The translations under genes were made by a program, and so were the position numbers. From assembly GCA_013538805.1 (NCBI GenBank), contig JABXGR010000004.1, positions 1 to 64,000 on the forward strand: 64,000 nt of DNA. The letters are read 5' to 3'. Position 1 is the stretch's first letter, and the number at the start of each line of letters is the position of its first letter. Source of the stretch: Candidatus Nitrosocaldus schleperae (GTDB lineage Archaea > Thermoproteota > Nitrososphaeria > Nitrososphaerales > Nitrosocaldaceae). The notes beneath the pieces are model-generated. The model ran no database searches and was not told the DNA's origin. It saw only the letters and a list, made by a program, of their open reading frames with translations. Positions 47,988 through 52,237 of this stretch are shown in pieces.

Positions 47988-49025
47988 ATGGGTGTAGTAT
48001 CATCAAGCGTTAAGGTTGGTGTAGACCCAGATACGGCATTCAGGTTCATAGCGGACCCAAAGAACATAGAAATAGTATATCCAGAGAGCCTAAGGTTCAG
48101 GGTACTGGAGTGTCCAGAGCAGATATCTGAAGGCTCTAGGATAAGGATGGAAGCTAGGCTTCTAGGCCAGAGGTTCGAATGGGAGTCAATAGTAAGGGAT
48201 TACAGAGAGGGTATAGGGTTCACAGATGAGGCAGTAGGCTCTCCATTCCTTATGTGGAGGCATACACATACTGTGAGAGACTCTATTGCTAGTGAGGATA
48301 ATAACAATGCTTACAGAGGGGGATCGGGTAAGGGATGCATAATAGATGATAGGATAGAGTTCAGGACCATACTAGGTCCCATAGGGGATAGGTTTGCTGA
48401 GAGGATGATATCGAGCATACTAGAGTACAGAAACCATAGGATGAGGGAGGTGCTTGAGGATAGGGGTGAGAGGGTAGAGGTAGAGTACAATGATCCTACA
48501 GTGATAAGCCTTGCCAAAGGCACTGCACTATGTATAATAGCAACCATAATAGGTCTACTGATCCCAATCTATGCTCAAGGCATAGGAGATCAGCAACTTA
48601 TACTCCTGATCGCCAATGGAATAGCATGGTTCCTCCTTTGGTTCTTTACACATGATCTGCTCCATCTGATAGTTGGAAGGCTTGTAGGTGTAAGATTCTC
48701 CCACTTCTACATAGGTATATCGAATCTGGTCAGAGCATTGAATGTAAGCCCAAAGTACAGGATGCTCTTCATAGCCTTGGGTATAAAGATAGATAGAGAG
48801 GGTAGCAGGGCATCCAAGCATGGGTATGCAGCAATGTACATATCTGGTCCACTTGCAAGCATGCTCGCCCCATTCTATATACCATTGTACATGCTCTCGC
48901 AAGGAATAAGTACTGTAGCACTACTCTTCCTTACACTATCCTTGATCAACCTCATACTAGATGCCATAATGAGCTATAGGCATGGTTGCATAAGGAAGGG
49001 GGTGAGAGCATTAACGAAGCAGTGA
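47988..49025 (+). CDS. COG4276-type SRPBCC domain fused to an M50-like membrane domain
   Basis: Residues 5-160 form an SRPBCC domain of the COG4276 kind: VGVDPDTAFRFIADPKNIE, GIGFTDEAVGSPFLMWRHTHTV and a terminal helix YRNHRMREVLE. Residues 175-345 hold about four membrane helices with H222-DLL-H226, GPLASMLAPF and LILDAIMSY. This is an M50/site-2-protease-like arrangement, though the usual HExxH has Asp instead of Glu, so activity is uncertain. As I recall, COG4276 proteins neighbour CarH/LitR genes in bacteria. It leads an operon-like set with the palindrome at 47929 upstream. Four-base GTGA overlap to the next gene. Confidence 0.7.
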   Translation: MGVVSSSVKVGVDPDTAFRFIADPKNIEIVYPESLRFRVLECPEQISEGSRIRMEARLLGQRFEWESIVRDYREGIGFTDEAVGSPFLMWRHTHTVRDSIASEDNNNAYRGGSGKGCIIDDRIEFRTILGPIGDRFAERMISSILEYRNHRMREVLEDRGERVEVEYNDPTVISLAKGTALCIIATIIGLLIPIYAQGIGDQQLILLIANGIAWFLLWFFTHDLLHLIVGRLVGVRFSHFYIGISNLVRALNVSPKYRMLFIALGIKIDREGSRASKHGYAAMYISGPLASMLAPFYIPLYMLSQGISTVALLFLTLSLINLILDAIMSYRHGCIRKGVRALTKQ

Positions 49026-49459
49026 TAGGCTTCATGGCAGGATGCATAGCCACTGGAGTGATAAGCATAATACAGTACCCATTCTGGAGGAGATGGGGCA
49101 TGATTGGAGTGCTGGAATGGCATGAGAATCAGTGCTTGATGTCTATGCTCTTCAAGAAGAACCCTGAGACACTGGTAAAGGAAGGGTTCATGCTGCACTT
49201 CCTTAATGGAGGGCTTGCAGCACTCTTCTATGCCATAATAGTGAAGAGCCTCTCACTAATCAGCATCGATCCAAATCTGCTAGGCATATCGTTTGGACTA
49301 CTGCTATGGATACTCACCCTTGCACCTATACACAAACCTATAACGGGTGTGAACATAACCAGACACCCTCTAGGCTACAAGCCTATACTGCTCAGCCTTG
49401 TTGCACATGTAGTGTATGGCATAATAGTTGCCCATATAGTAGTGATATGGCTTGGTTAG
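49022..49459 (+). CDS. Four-helix membrane protein of unknown function
   Basis: A GTG at 49022, overlapping the previous stop in GTGA, gives a 145-residue protein with about four hydrophobic segments and a short hydrophilic loop (GVLEWHENQCLMSMLFKKNPETLVKEG). A Pro/His-rich stretch (APIHKPITGVNITRHPLGYKP) precedes the last helix. ATG 49034 is an alternative start. No family is recognised. Tight overlaps at both ends place it in the same operon as the SRPBCC and glycosylase genes. Confidence 0.6.
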   Translation: MIGFMAGCIATGVISIIQYPFWRRWGMIGVLEWHENQCLMSMLFKKNPETLVKEGFMLHFLNGGLAALFYAIIVKSLSLISIDPNLLGISFGLLLWILTLAPIHKPITGVNITRHPLGYKPILLSLVAHVVYGIIVAHIVVIWLG

Positions 49460-49895
49460 GGTCAACCTCATCGACAGCCTATACCTGACGGATCAGCATC
49501 TTATAGCAGAGTACAATGAGATACTCATGCTAATCTCATATCTAAGACGTTACCCTCTTAGGCATTATGATGTAACAAGAATACCAAAGAGGTTCACCCT
49601 GGGCAAAGGGCATATGATATTCTTCAAAGACAAGGTACTCTACCTGAAGAGGAGGCACGACTCTATAAGGGAAGAGATGGGCAAGAGGGGCTATGTAAGC
49701 AGGAGGGTTCTAAGCATAGATGGCTTCCCTAGCATAATGCTTAATGACTGGCTACCAGATGAGCAAGATGTGATGGTAATCAAATCCAGGCTGGTGGATA
49801 AGGTCAGGACCAAACCATGGCTCTACACCTACTATGGGTATAGACTTGGCGTGGATGAGTTGGTGAGCCTCATCAAGTTCGCTACTTGGCACTAG
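49452..49895 (+). CDS. Pyrimidine-dimer DNA glycosylase (T4 endonuclease V-like)
   Basis: The 147-residue protein aligns with T4 endonuclease V, the base-excision enzyme for UV-induced pyrimidine dimers. It has RVNLIDSLYLTDQHLIAEYNEI at the start (matching TRINL..ELADQHLMAEYREL), the catalytic E23 in AEYNE, LGKGHMIFFKDKVLYLKRR (phage: LGAGHVTFFYDK), and a C-terminal VRTKPWLYTYYG. With the TTG at 49452 as start, numbering agrees exactly, and residue 2 is Val where T4 has Thr. The T4 alpha-amino group of residue 2 is the nucleophile. The TTG lies inside the preceding gene. Confidence 0.88.
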   Translation: MVRVNLIDSLYLTDQHLIAEYNEILMLISYLRRYPLRHYDVTRIPKRFTLGKGHMIFFKDKVLYLKRRHDSIREEMGKRGYVSRRVLSIDGFPSIMLNDWLPDEQDVMVIKSRLVDKVRTKPWLYTYYGYRLGVDELVSLIKFATWH

Positions 49896-49913
49896 ATATA
49901 TGATTAGCACTAT
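49886..49913 (+). promoter_or_regulatory. Direct-repeat operator-like element before the B12 regulator gene
   Basis: Two related elements lie 18 bp apart: TTGGCACTAG (49886-49895, inside the end of the glycosylase gene) and TTAGCACTAT (49904-49913). A TTTATTTATA box (49916-49925) follows, about 26 bp before the ATG at 49945. The first copy starts 59 bp before that ATG, the same distance as in the other two promoters of the cluster. Confidence 0.62.
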
Positions 49914-49944
49914 GTTTATTTATAAGGTTCGCCCCATCTACCTT

Positions 49945-50865
49945 ATGGCCTATATAAGGCTGAAGAGCATAAGGGGTATAAGGTATGCATACTTGGTTGA
50001 GAGCGTATGGGATAAGGAGAGGAAGCAACCTAAGCAGAGGACAATAAAGTACCTTGGTAGGGTAGAGGGTATACGCCTGGATGATATACCAGAGGAGTGC
50101 AGGAATGATCCAAACATACTCAGATTCCTCAACGAGCTTGAGGAATCAAAGATGGGTAGAAATGATGGTAGTGTGGATATGGTAAAGGAAGAGCCTAAGA
50201 TCACAAGAAGTGCACATAACAATAGCAAGATAGCCTTTAGCGAGGATAACAAAATGGTAATAGAGATGCTCTCATCTGGTAACATGGAAGAGTTGATGGG
50301 CATCTACAAGACCTTCCTAGAGAGGTATAGGAGTAAGAGCCAAGCCATGCTAGAGTTCTATGAGCGTATAATAATCCCTGCACTCAACGAGGTTGGACAT
50401 CTCTGGATGAGGAATGAGCTTGGGATAGCTATAGAGCATGTGTGTAGCAACACCACCTTGGGCTTGATACAGATGATAGAGAGTTACAATGCACAAATGG
50501 CTAATGGGGATGCTAATAAGGGTAACGTGCTTATATGCACTCCATATGGAGATCTACACAGCATACCATGCAAGATGGTAGAGTCCATACTTATGAGCAA
50601 GGGCTACAAGGTATACAACATTGCGCCATCCACACCCAGAGAGACTGTTATGAAGTATGTTCAGGAGATCAAGCCAAGTATGGTGATAGTATCAGTAACA
50701 TTATCGTCCAGAGCAAAGGCAGCTGAGAGGCTTGTGAAGGAACTTCTAAGCAGATATGATAACAGCATAACCATAATTGTAGGGGGGAGGGGCTCTAGCG
50801 AGATGAGTATTGAGCAAGGGGTCATCAGGGCTGAGAGCCTCTCTGAACTAGCCTCACTACTCTGA
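49945..50865 (+). CDS. CarH-like cobalamin-binding regulator with novel N-terminal domain
   Basis: The 306-residue protein starts MAYIRLKSIRGIRYAYLVES, a short basic domain resembling the N-terminus of some archaeal transposases and small DNA-binding proteins, not a MerR helix-turn-helix. After a linker, residues 125-180 form a helical bundle with W154-x9-E164-H165, the signature of CarH photoreceptors. Residues 195-295 form a Rossmann fold with GDLH205SIP, the lower cobalamin ligand motif (the family has ExHxxG). The residue after W154 is Met, not the His that CarH uses after light exposure. ATG 49945 fits a TATA at 49916-49925 better than the frame's first ATG at 49900. Confidence 0.74.
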   Translation: MAYIRLKSIRGIRYAYLVESVWDKERKQPKQRTIKYLGRVEGIRLDDIPEECRNDPNILRFLNELEESKMGRNDGSVDMVKEEPKITRSAHNNSKIAFSEDNKMVIEMLSSGNMEELMGIYKTFLERYRSKSQAMLEFYERIIIPALNEVGHLWMRNELGIAIEHVCSNTTLGLIQMIESYNAQMANGDANKGNVLICTPYGDLHSIPCKMVESILMSKGYKVYNIAPSTPRETVMKYVQEIKPSMVIVSVTLSSRAKAAERLVKELLSRYDNSITIIVGGRGSSEMSIEQGVIRAESLSELASLL

Positions 50866-50866
50866 A

Positions 50867-50895
50867 TTAGGCACTAGTAAAGAATTACCACTATT
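50867..50895 (+). promoter_or_regulatory. Direct-repeat operator-like element before the NDH-2-like gene
   Basis: TTAGGCACTAG (50867-50877) and TTACCACTATT (50885-50895) lie 18 bp apart, followed by TATTTATATAC (50895-50905). The TATA is about 26 bp before ATG 50927, and the first repeat starts 60 bp before it. This mirrors the elements at 49886 and 47929. Confidence 0.62.
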
Positions 50896-50926
50896 ATTTA
50901 TATACTTGAGTGCTGAAGATGGGTTG

Positions 50927-52237
50927 ATGGAAGTTAAGGTCAAGGGTATGGATGAGAGGGTTGTCATTGCAGGGGCTGGATATGCTGGGCTTACAGCAGC
51001 ATCAGTGCTTGATGGTAAGGTAGATCTAACCCTGATAGATAGGAAGGTTTACCATGAGATGCTGACTAGGGCACATCTAGTTGCTGGAGGTTTGGAGGAG
51101 GTGCATGAGGACATAATCTTGCTTAATGAGGTACTCAAGGGGAGGAAGAGCAGGATTGTACAAGCTAGTATCAGATCCATAAACCTGAATGAGAGGAAGA
51201 TTGTGATAGAGAATGATGGTAGGGTTGAGGATATACACTATGATCATCTCATACTTGCCTTAGGATCGGAGGTTAACTACTATGGTGTTGATGGTGCAAG
51301 AGAGTATGCCATTGGGTTCAGAAGCATGAAGGATGCACTGAAGATACGCAGGAGACTCAACTCTATGGGGGATGGGGATAGTATAGTAGTAGTTGGGGGA
51401 GGGGCTACTGGCATAAGCCTTGCAGGGGCATTATCAGAGGCAAGGATGATTCTAGGGAAGAGGTTTAGGATAAAGGTGATAGAGGCATTGGATAGGATAC
51501 TATACGGATGGGATGAGTATATAGTGGATAAGGCCAAGGAGGTACTTGAGAGCAGGGGTGTTGATATACTTACTAATACAAAGGTTGTGAAGGTTAGAGA
51601 TCACTCCATAGTGATCGATGATGGAGAAGAGATGAGGAGTGATCTTACGGTATGGACTGCTGGTGTAAAGGGCTCCAGCATAGATGTAATGCCAGAGGTT
51701 AGCAGGGTTAAAGGATACAGGATAGAGGTTGACAAGTTCTCAAGGATAAGAGGCTACGATGATGCATATGCTGTGGGCGACATCTCAGCACTTAGGCTAG
51801 ATGATGGTAGTTATGCTCCACAGCTTGCACAGTTGGCTGTAAGACAAGGGTACAGGGTAGCTATGAATATACTTAACAGCATCGATGGTAAGGAGATCAG
51901 ACCATTGTTGCTTAAGATGCAAGGGGCTATCCTATCTCTAGGAAGTGAGTGTATAGGCACCATAGGCGGTCTAAGGTTAGAGGGTGAGCTGTGTAGATAT
52001 GTTGAGGAGTTCATAACATACAACTACAAGAGGATGCTTCATGGTGATGGCTTAGCATTACTTGCATATGAGGATGACCCACTAGCAAACGTGGTTACTT
52101 TTAGTAGAGCACTATCCTATCTATCTGTACGCTACACACTTCAATTGGCTAGACTTTATGCTACAACGCTAGGGCTAGGTTGCTATATTGGTGCGGAAAG
52201 TGCTGGAGTCAAGAGGATGAATTGGTTGGTGAGGTGA
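50927..52237 (+). CDS. NDH-2-like FAD-dependent NADH dehydrogenase
   Basis: The 436-residue flavoprotein has the two dinucleotide-binding folds of type II NADH dehydrogenases: VVIAGAGYAGLTAASVL near the start, and VVVGGGATGISLAGALSEA in the middle. DDAYAVGDISA carries the FAD-binding GD, followed by YAPQLAQLAVRQGYR. NDH-2 enzymes pass electrons from NADH to quinone without pumping protons. A TTG-initiated extension to 50906 is possible, but the TATA at 50897-50904 favours ATG 50927. It has its own promoter with the TTAGGCACTA element. Confidence 0.87.
   Translation: MEVKVKGMDERVVIAGAGYAGLTAASVLDGKVDLTLIDRKVYHEMLTRAHLVAGGLEEVHEDIILLNEVLKGRKSRIVQASIRSINLNERKIVIENDGRVEDIHYDHLILALGSEVNYYGVDGAREYAIGFRSMKDALKIRRRLNSMGDGDSIVVVGGGATGISLAGALSEARMILGKRFRIKVIEALDRILYGWDEYIVDKAKEVLESRGVDILTNTKVVKVRDHSIVIDDGEEMRSDLTVWTAGVKGSSIDVMPEVSRVKGYRIEVDKFSRIRGYDDAYAVGDISALRLDDGSYAPQLAQLAVRQGYRVAMNILNSIDGKEIRPLLLKMQGAILSLGSECIGTIGGLRLEGELCRYVEEFITYNYKRMLHGDGLALLAYEDDPLANVVTFSRALSYLSVRYTLQLARLYATTLGLGCYIGAESAGVKRMNWLVR

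Follow-up and report, generated by a model that had tools for sequence, protein, structure and literature searches.

The light sensitivity of ammonia-oxidizing archaea (AOA) is a long-standing question for nitrogen cycling in the ocean and in soil, and no AOA light sensor turned up in the open literature searched. The stretch of Candidatus Nitrosocaldus schleperae DNA analysed here, 64,000 nucleotides long and called the window below, contains a gene that raises this question anew. The original prediction was that it encodes an archaeal relative of the cobalamin photoreceptor CarH in which the DNA-binding domain has been replaced. Is the protein such a receptor, and which genes would it control? 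Our answer, to which we give a probability of about 70%, is that it belongs to a family of archaeal transcription regulators that sense light via adenosylcobalamin (AdoCbl), and represents this family in Nitrosocaldus; we infer both the binding of AdoCbl and the response to light. Coordinates are collected in Table 1.

Table 1. Position and support of the features at the regulator locus (positions of the window).
Feature	Coordinates	Strand	Support and remarks
SRPBCC (polyketide-cyclase-like) domain fused to M50-like membrane segment	47988..49025	+	both Pfam matches slightly under cut-off
DUF6789 membrane protein	48986..49459	+	Pfam PF20587 slightly under cut-off; recurrent neighbour in other families (cluster c36)
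Pyrimidine-dimer DNA glycosylase (Pyr_excise), directly upstream	49452..49895	+	Pfam PF03013 E=2.1e-13
Putative operator 1, TTGGCACTA-N9-TTAGCACTA	49886..49912	+	conserved upstream of orthologues; sole strict-pattern site in genome
TATA-like box TTTATTTATA	49915-49924	+	after operator 1; start codon at 49945
Regulator gene	49945..50865	+	306 aa and stop; open frame; orthologues 31-70% identical over full length
N-terminal putative DNA-binding domain, residues 1-70	49945..50154	+	AlphaFold, mean pLDDT about 90 or more over most
Disordered linker, residues 73-97	50161..50235	+	pLDDT < 50; gap in other orthologues
Helical-bundle half of cobalamin domain, residues 100-185	50242..50499	+	Pfam B12-binding_2; AlphaFold model; signature control
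W154 codon; E164-H165 codons	50404-50406; 50434-50439	+	within helical-bundle half
Rossmann half of cobalamin domain, residues 194-306	50524..50862	+	lower-ligand motif GDLH205; Pfam B12-binding; Foldseek 8jbs E=4.5e-12
His205 codon	50557-50559	+	lower-ligand motif GDLH205
Putative operator 2, TAGGCACTA-N8-TTACCACTA, then TTATTTATATA	50868..50893	+	before next gene (FAD oxidoreductase)
FAD/NAD(P) oxidoreductase (NDH-2-like), likely regulated	50906..52237	+	Pfam Pyr_redox_2 E=8.8e-39; operator 2 upstream; start codon uncertain

Translation of the gene ran through all 306 residues without internal stop, and W154-x9-E164-H165, GDLH205SIP and Met155 were found exactly where they had been predicted; the N-terminus reads MAYIRLKSIRGIRYAYLVES. 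An in-frame ATG at 49900 would give 321 aa, but both the orthologue alignment and the position of the operator with its TATA-like box (49886-49924) favour the start at 49945. An antisense ORF at 49950-50303 was without any support and was discarded. Close relatives of the gene, at 64-70% identity, belong to Candidatus Nitrosocaldus sp. SKYG19 and an uncultured Nitrososphaerales bin, and it is dispensable, since it is missing from two other genomes of the genus that are at least 90% complete (G001 and G005). The window genome (1.45 Mb, 97% complete) also encodes a methylmalonyl-CoA mutase, meaning that a demand for AdoCbl exists and that the cofactor should be available.

Pfam placed B12-binding_2 at residues 107-173 (E=1.5e-9) and B12-binding at residues 194-283 (E=4.9e-13). 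When a profile built from 33 aligned orthologues was searched against the PDB, the top matches were all light receptors: photocobilin 8j2x/8j2w (5e-21), CtMerR 8jbs (5e-20) and photocobilin 8j2y (2e-17). Behind them, at 2e-15 to 1e-13, ranked corrinoid proteins, MetH and TtCarH, so that the best match was not a corrinoid methyltransferase partner. The AlphaFold model of the whole protein had a mean pLDDT of 87.8; the linker between head and sensor is long in Nitrosocaldus members only, according to the orthologue alignment. Foldseek with this model returned 8jbs as best match (E 4.5e-12, TM 0.76 by target), and the comparison with T. thermophilus CarH that the original prediction had called for gave 0.71-0.79 with the TtCarH chains.

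A signature made of GxxW, EH, GxxH and GxxxP was experimentally validated in 2024 for light-responsive cobalamin domains (PMC11796333). Three of its four elements are present in the window protein (GHLW 151-154, EH 164-165, GDLH 202-205); the GxxxP position reads APSTP (AxxxP), a G being found there in many Nitrosopumilus orthologues, and in CtMerR this glycine is without obvious contact (PMC11796333). Residues G151, W154, E164, H165, G202 and H205 were invariant in the 33 diverse orthologues aligned, W154, E164, H165 and H205 being the equivalents of CarH W131, E141, H142 and H177. The control set consisted of 17 further B12 domains taken from related genomes, MetH-like ones included: W together with EH was found in one, with 3 of the 17 aligning partly. 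The exception is a 422-aa protein of one genome of the same order (L025, 793-2058), in which another B12 domain pair with W and the light-type EH/GxxH residues follows a different N-terminus; judging by these residues, it is possibly a second archaeal B12 photoreceptor.

The residue after W154 had been read as Met, and light chemistry as possibly different or lost. The Met is there: Met155 stands at the position of CarH His132, which takes part in the bis-His light state, and His was found at this position in none of the 33 orthologues. Loss of photochemistry does not follow, because CtMerR carries Arg at the same position and is nevertheless light-responsive (PMC11796333); Met155 was rejected as an argument on that precedent. 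The PDB profile search, the AlphaFold model with Foldseek and the residue signature thus agree on the CarH-like sensor module with a replaced head that had been proposed. By sequence and model, the C-terminal two thirds are an AdoCbl-type sensor module, whose nearest solved kin are light receptors, not enzymes.

The head, for its part, is predicted by AlphaFold with high confidence to form a three-stranded antiparallel sheet (strands 2-9, 12-23 and 28-39) plus a helix (56-70). It is basic, with a net charge of +8 over residues 1-40, and of +5 to +9 across all members. A MerR winged-helix N-terminus was not found, the N-terminus being blank in Pfam and predicted as sheet and helix. Searches of the head against Pfam and PHROG gave nothing above noise in any member, and no sequence match was found in the PDB; a fold search with Foldseek gave nothing significant (best E=0.15, PC4 at 0.36 being a mere hint). 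The guess that it resembles archaeal transposase heads fared better. A profile of the N-terminal 60 residues matched ORFs of one other archaeal genome of the same phylum (E=1e-8 to 7e-7), and these sit directly before DDE_Tnp_1 transposase ORFs. The match indicates that the head is related to DDE transposase heads, not to MerR; in the archaeal regulator, by contrast, it is fused to a B12 sensor and no transposase domain is present.

Two further occurrences of the head were seen. In a 3.4-Mb Nitrososphaeraceae-like genome, a stand-alone 74-aa copy is the neighbour of an SDR gene (L141, 1253-1477); as stops follow this copy, it is probably a decayed paralogue. A 136-aa protein (L142, 998-1408) joins the same head to an unrelated C-terminus, suggesting use of the head in further proteins.

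Querying public genome contigs with the alignment yielded 137 relatives, where a single-protein query yielded none. All of the 80 relatives listed among these 137 come, by their record titles, from AOA lineages: Nitrosocaldus, Nitrososphaeraceae, Nitrosocosmicus, Nitrosopumilus, Nitrosopelagicus, Nitrosarchaeum, Nitrosotenuis and other thaumarchaeotes. In a survey of 221 genomes of the order, with families labelled by content, the gene was present in 75 of 136 Nitrosopumilaceae-type genomes and in 20 of 39 Nitrososphaeraceae-like ones. Going by these homologies, the predicted B12-sensor regulator is no single oddity; it forms a family throughout the ammonia-oxidizing archaea, with its own operator.

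The tandem TTAGCACTA operator in the regulator's promoters is new here. Family promoters carry a candidate operator of the form TTAGCACTA-N10-TTAGCACTA abutting the TATA box, and the two direct copies are common to the upstream regions of orthologues with just 31-41% protein identity. The core, with at most one mismatch, was found in 67 of 80 gene upstreams, against about 1 in shuffles. Repeat spacing was mostly 19 bp (range 18-20), and the TATA-like box started 0-2 bp past repeat 2 in 46 of 62 cases. In the window genome the strict tandem pattern occurs once and the relaxed pattern twice, as operators 1 and 2, both of which are kept in three Nitrosocaldus genomes despite diverged spacers. In the 221-genome survey the tandem site accompanied the gene: it was present in 66 of the 75 Nitrosopumilaceae-type genomes with the gene versus 3 of 61 without (p=1e-24), and in the second family in 13 of 20 versus 1 of 19. 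A reversed control pattern had about 3 matches in all 221 genomes. A role of TTAGCACTA as general promoter element was dismissed in view of the single strict tandem site in the 1.45-Mb genome, the reversed control and the near absence of sites from genomes lacking the gene.

Which genes would be under this operator? Among promoters near the gene, 159 of 1383 had a site within 3 mismatches, against 1 of 708 shuffles. A distance of about 30 bp between the end of a tandem site and a start codon is frequent; the genes concerned include the regulator, a CrtI-like oxidase, a ferritin-like protein and secreted proteins, and NmrA-type SDR genes are also preceded by such sites. In two genomes (L067 and L073) a tandem copy upstream of the gene lies on the opposite strand and faces a divergent DUF6789 gene. 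At L163, L164, L154 and L174, a divergent DUF1722 gene has its operator region in common with secreted proteins that contain repeats like 'PxWIKxNAGWWADG'.

Neighbouring genes point to light damage. Within the genus, Pyr_excise was found in only three genomes, those with the regulator. Two observations in the window genome weigh against the light reading: its Pyr_excise gene has no operator of its own, and a photolyase was not found. In other AOA the neighbours are NmrA-type SDR, DUF1722, photolyase, CrtI-like and SRPBCC-like genes, with a small SRPBCC-like protein (cluster c7, blank in Pfam and assigned by eye) recurring near orthologues. Neighbours of these kinds are typical of bacterial photodamage clusters and of those linked to CarH. 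Co-occurrence in the larger family was 29/30 for photolyase (p=1e-7), 55/58 for DUF1722 (p=6e-16) and 27/30 for Pyr_excise (p=4e-5), these p-values not being corrected for shared ancestry. Beside them, physical linkage is a further support: the distance to the gene is at most 5 kb for 19 of 38 photolyases and for 52 of 68 DUF1722 genes.

The regulator and its operator could instead serve another signal, namely AdoCbl supply or the oxidation of cobalamin, which would make the protein a sensor of B12 level or of redox state and ROS. A ferritin-like (Dps-type) protein and FAD oxidoreductases among the regulated or linked genes fit oxidative stress as well, and the PDB profile matches include AerR, which is a B12-binding antirepressor. 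We consider this alternative unlikely, though worth keeping in mind: the enrichment concerns photolyase, DUF1722 and the UV glycosylase, cobalamin synthesis genes were not seen among the recurrent neighbours, and it was for light response that the residue signature was validated (PMC11796333).

How the protein might act can be gathered from known systems. In fold the nearest match is the cobalamin domain of CtMerR from Chloracidobacterium thermophilum (PDB 8JBS/8JBT), which is also among the top matches by sequence. Both proteins lack the CarH His after W and have EH, GxxH and the proline in common (PMC11796333), but CtMerR is bacterial and has a MerR-type DNA-binding head, whereas the archaeal beta-sheet head is of another kind. 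The photocobilins SasPcob (8J2W) and AbDPcob (8J2Y), the highest-scoring solved relatives of the archaeal cobalamin domain, have their own biliverdin-binding domain and no archaeal-type head. With CarH/LitR of Thermus, Bacillus and Myxococcus the archaeal protein shares the sensor signature, the head-plus-sensor layout, a direct-repeat operator over the core promoter, and linked genes of photodamage and carotenoid type; it differs by lacking the MerR helix-turn-helix and His132. The CarH operator consists of tandem 11-bp nnnnTnnACAn repeats (PMC9304148, PMC8156234), the archaeal one of a 9-bp core, TTAGCACTA, with a 19-bp period (18-20). The NCBIfam CarH equivalog model gave 47 bits against a cut-off of 400 bits. 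Since the tests on MerR, His132, operator form and curated score all failed, the archaeal regulator is not a CarH, but by analogy its action is probably CarH-like.

In the dark, CarH forms an AdoCbl-bound tetramer on direct repeats over the promoter, which is disassembled by light (PMC9304148, PMC8156234). Likewise, the archaeal protein with bound AdoCbl would oligomerise in the dark via its cobalamin domains and place its basic N-terminal beta-sheet heads on the two direct TTAGCACTA repeats, 18-20 bp apart. Repeat 2 would cover the place where TFB contacts the BRE beside the TATA box, and transcription would therefore be blocked. Upon illumination the Co-C bond would break, the assembly loosen and the operator be freed, after which the regulator would be expressed along with a limited number of photodamage and photooxidation genes. 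We infer that the head binds the operator directly and that it represses rather than activates; dark repression relieved by light is the most likely mode in view of the CarH analogy and of the position of repeat 2, directly at the TATA box where the BRE is expected. The best reading by this analogy is a light-relieved archaeal repressor of photodamage defence.

Ownership of the operator may be questioned, as TFB genes lie 3-5 genes off in many Nitrosopumilaceae: TTAGCACTA could be the site of another factor, for instance a TFB paralogue near some orthologues, the B12 protein being merely one target. This is improbable, given that the operator vanishes from genomes without the B12-regulator gene, that Nitrosocaldus has it with no TFB next to the gene, and that CarH-type regulators self-regulate through direct repeats at their promoter.

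Still less probable is a B12-independent regulator resembling CarA or class-II LitR, whose domain would be a scaffold and whose signal would come from a partner protein. CarA does bind its operator without need for B12 (PMC8156234), and in Nitrosopelagicus MEDS and HTH_45 proteins lie next to the gene, but the residues that contact AdoCbl do not vary between lineages. A corrinoid methyltransferase partner or other B12 enzyme module, to which the common B12 fold and matches of the TIGR02370 and MtgC models (about 1e-11 to 1e-10, far under cut-off, TIGR02370 with 45 bits against 215) could point, is scarcely credible and was rejected, as W and EH are missing from enzyme-type B12 domains, no methyltransferase is encoded nearby, and light receptors outscore it in the PDB profile search.

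We thus retain a light-responsive AdoCbl regulator as the main reading. With somewhat less assurance, we lean towards a whole, as yet undescribed class of archaeal photoreceptor transcription factors, joining a B12 light domain to a DNA-binding fold of the transposase-head kind, not helix-turn-helix, and controlling a photodamage regulon via the tandem TTAGCACTA operator in many AOA lineages. In the open literature searched, which leaves most subscription papers and preprints outside its coverage, we found no archaeal or AOA B12 photoreceptor of such kind, in line with what the original prediction had stated. Among the partners of cobalamin domains given by the 2024 mining study (HTH, diguanylate cyclase, biliverdin, GAF and MEDS), the archaeal head does not figure (PMC11796333). 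If the reading is true, this would be the first archaeal B12 photoreceptor regulator within that literature, and the new combination of head and sensor would be of interest to green-light optogenetics. With a gene, a DNA target and candidate regulated genes in hand, the question of light sensing in AOA becomes directly testable. The recurrence of the regulator across these lineages, together with its DNA target and light-damage repair genes, suggests how AOA, microbes of global importance, could perceive light and react to it.
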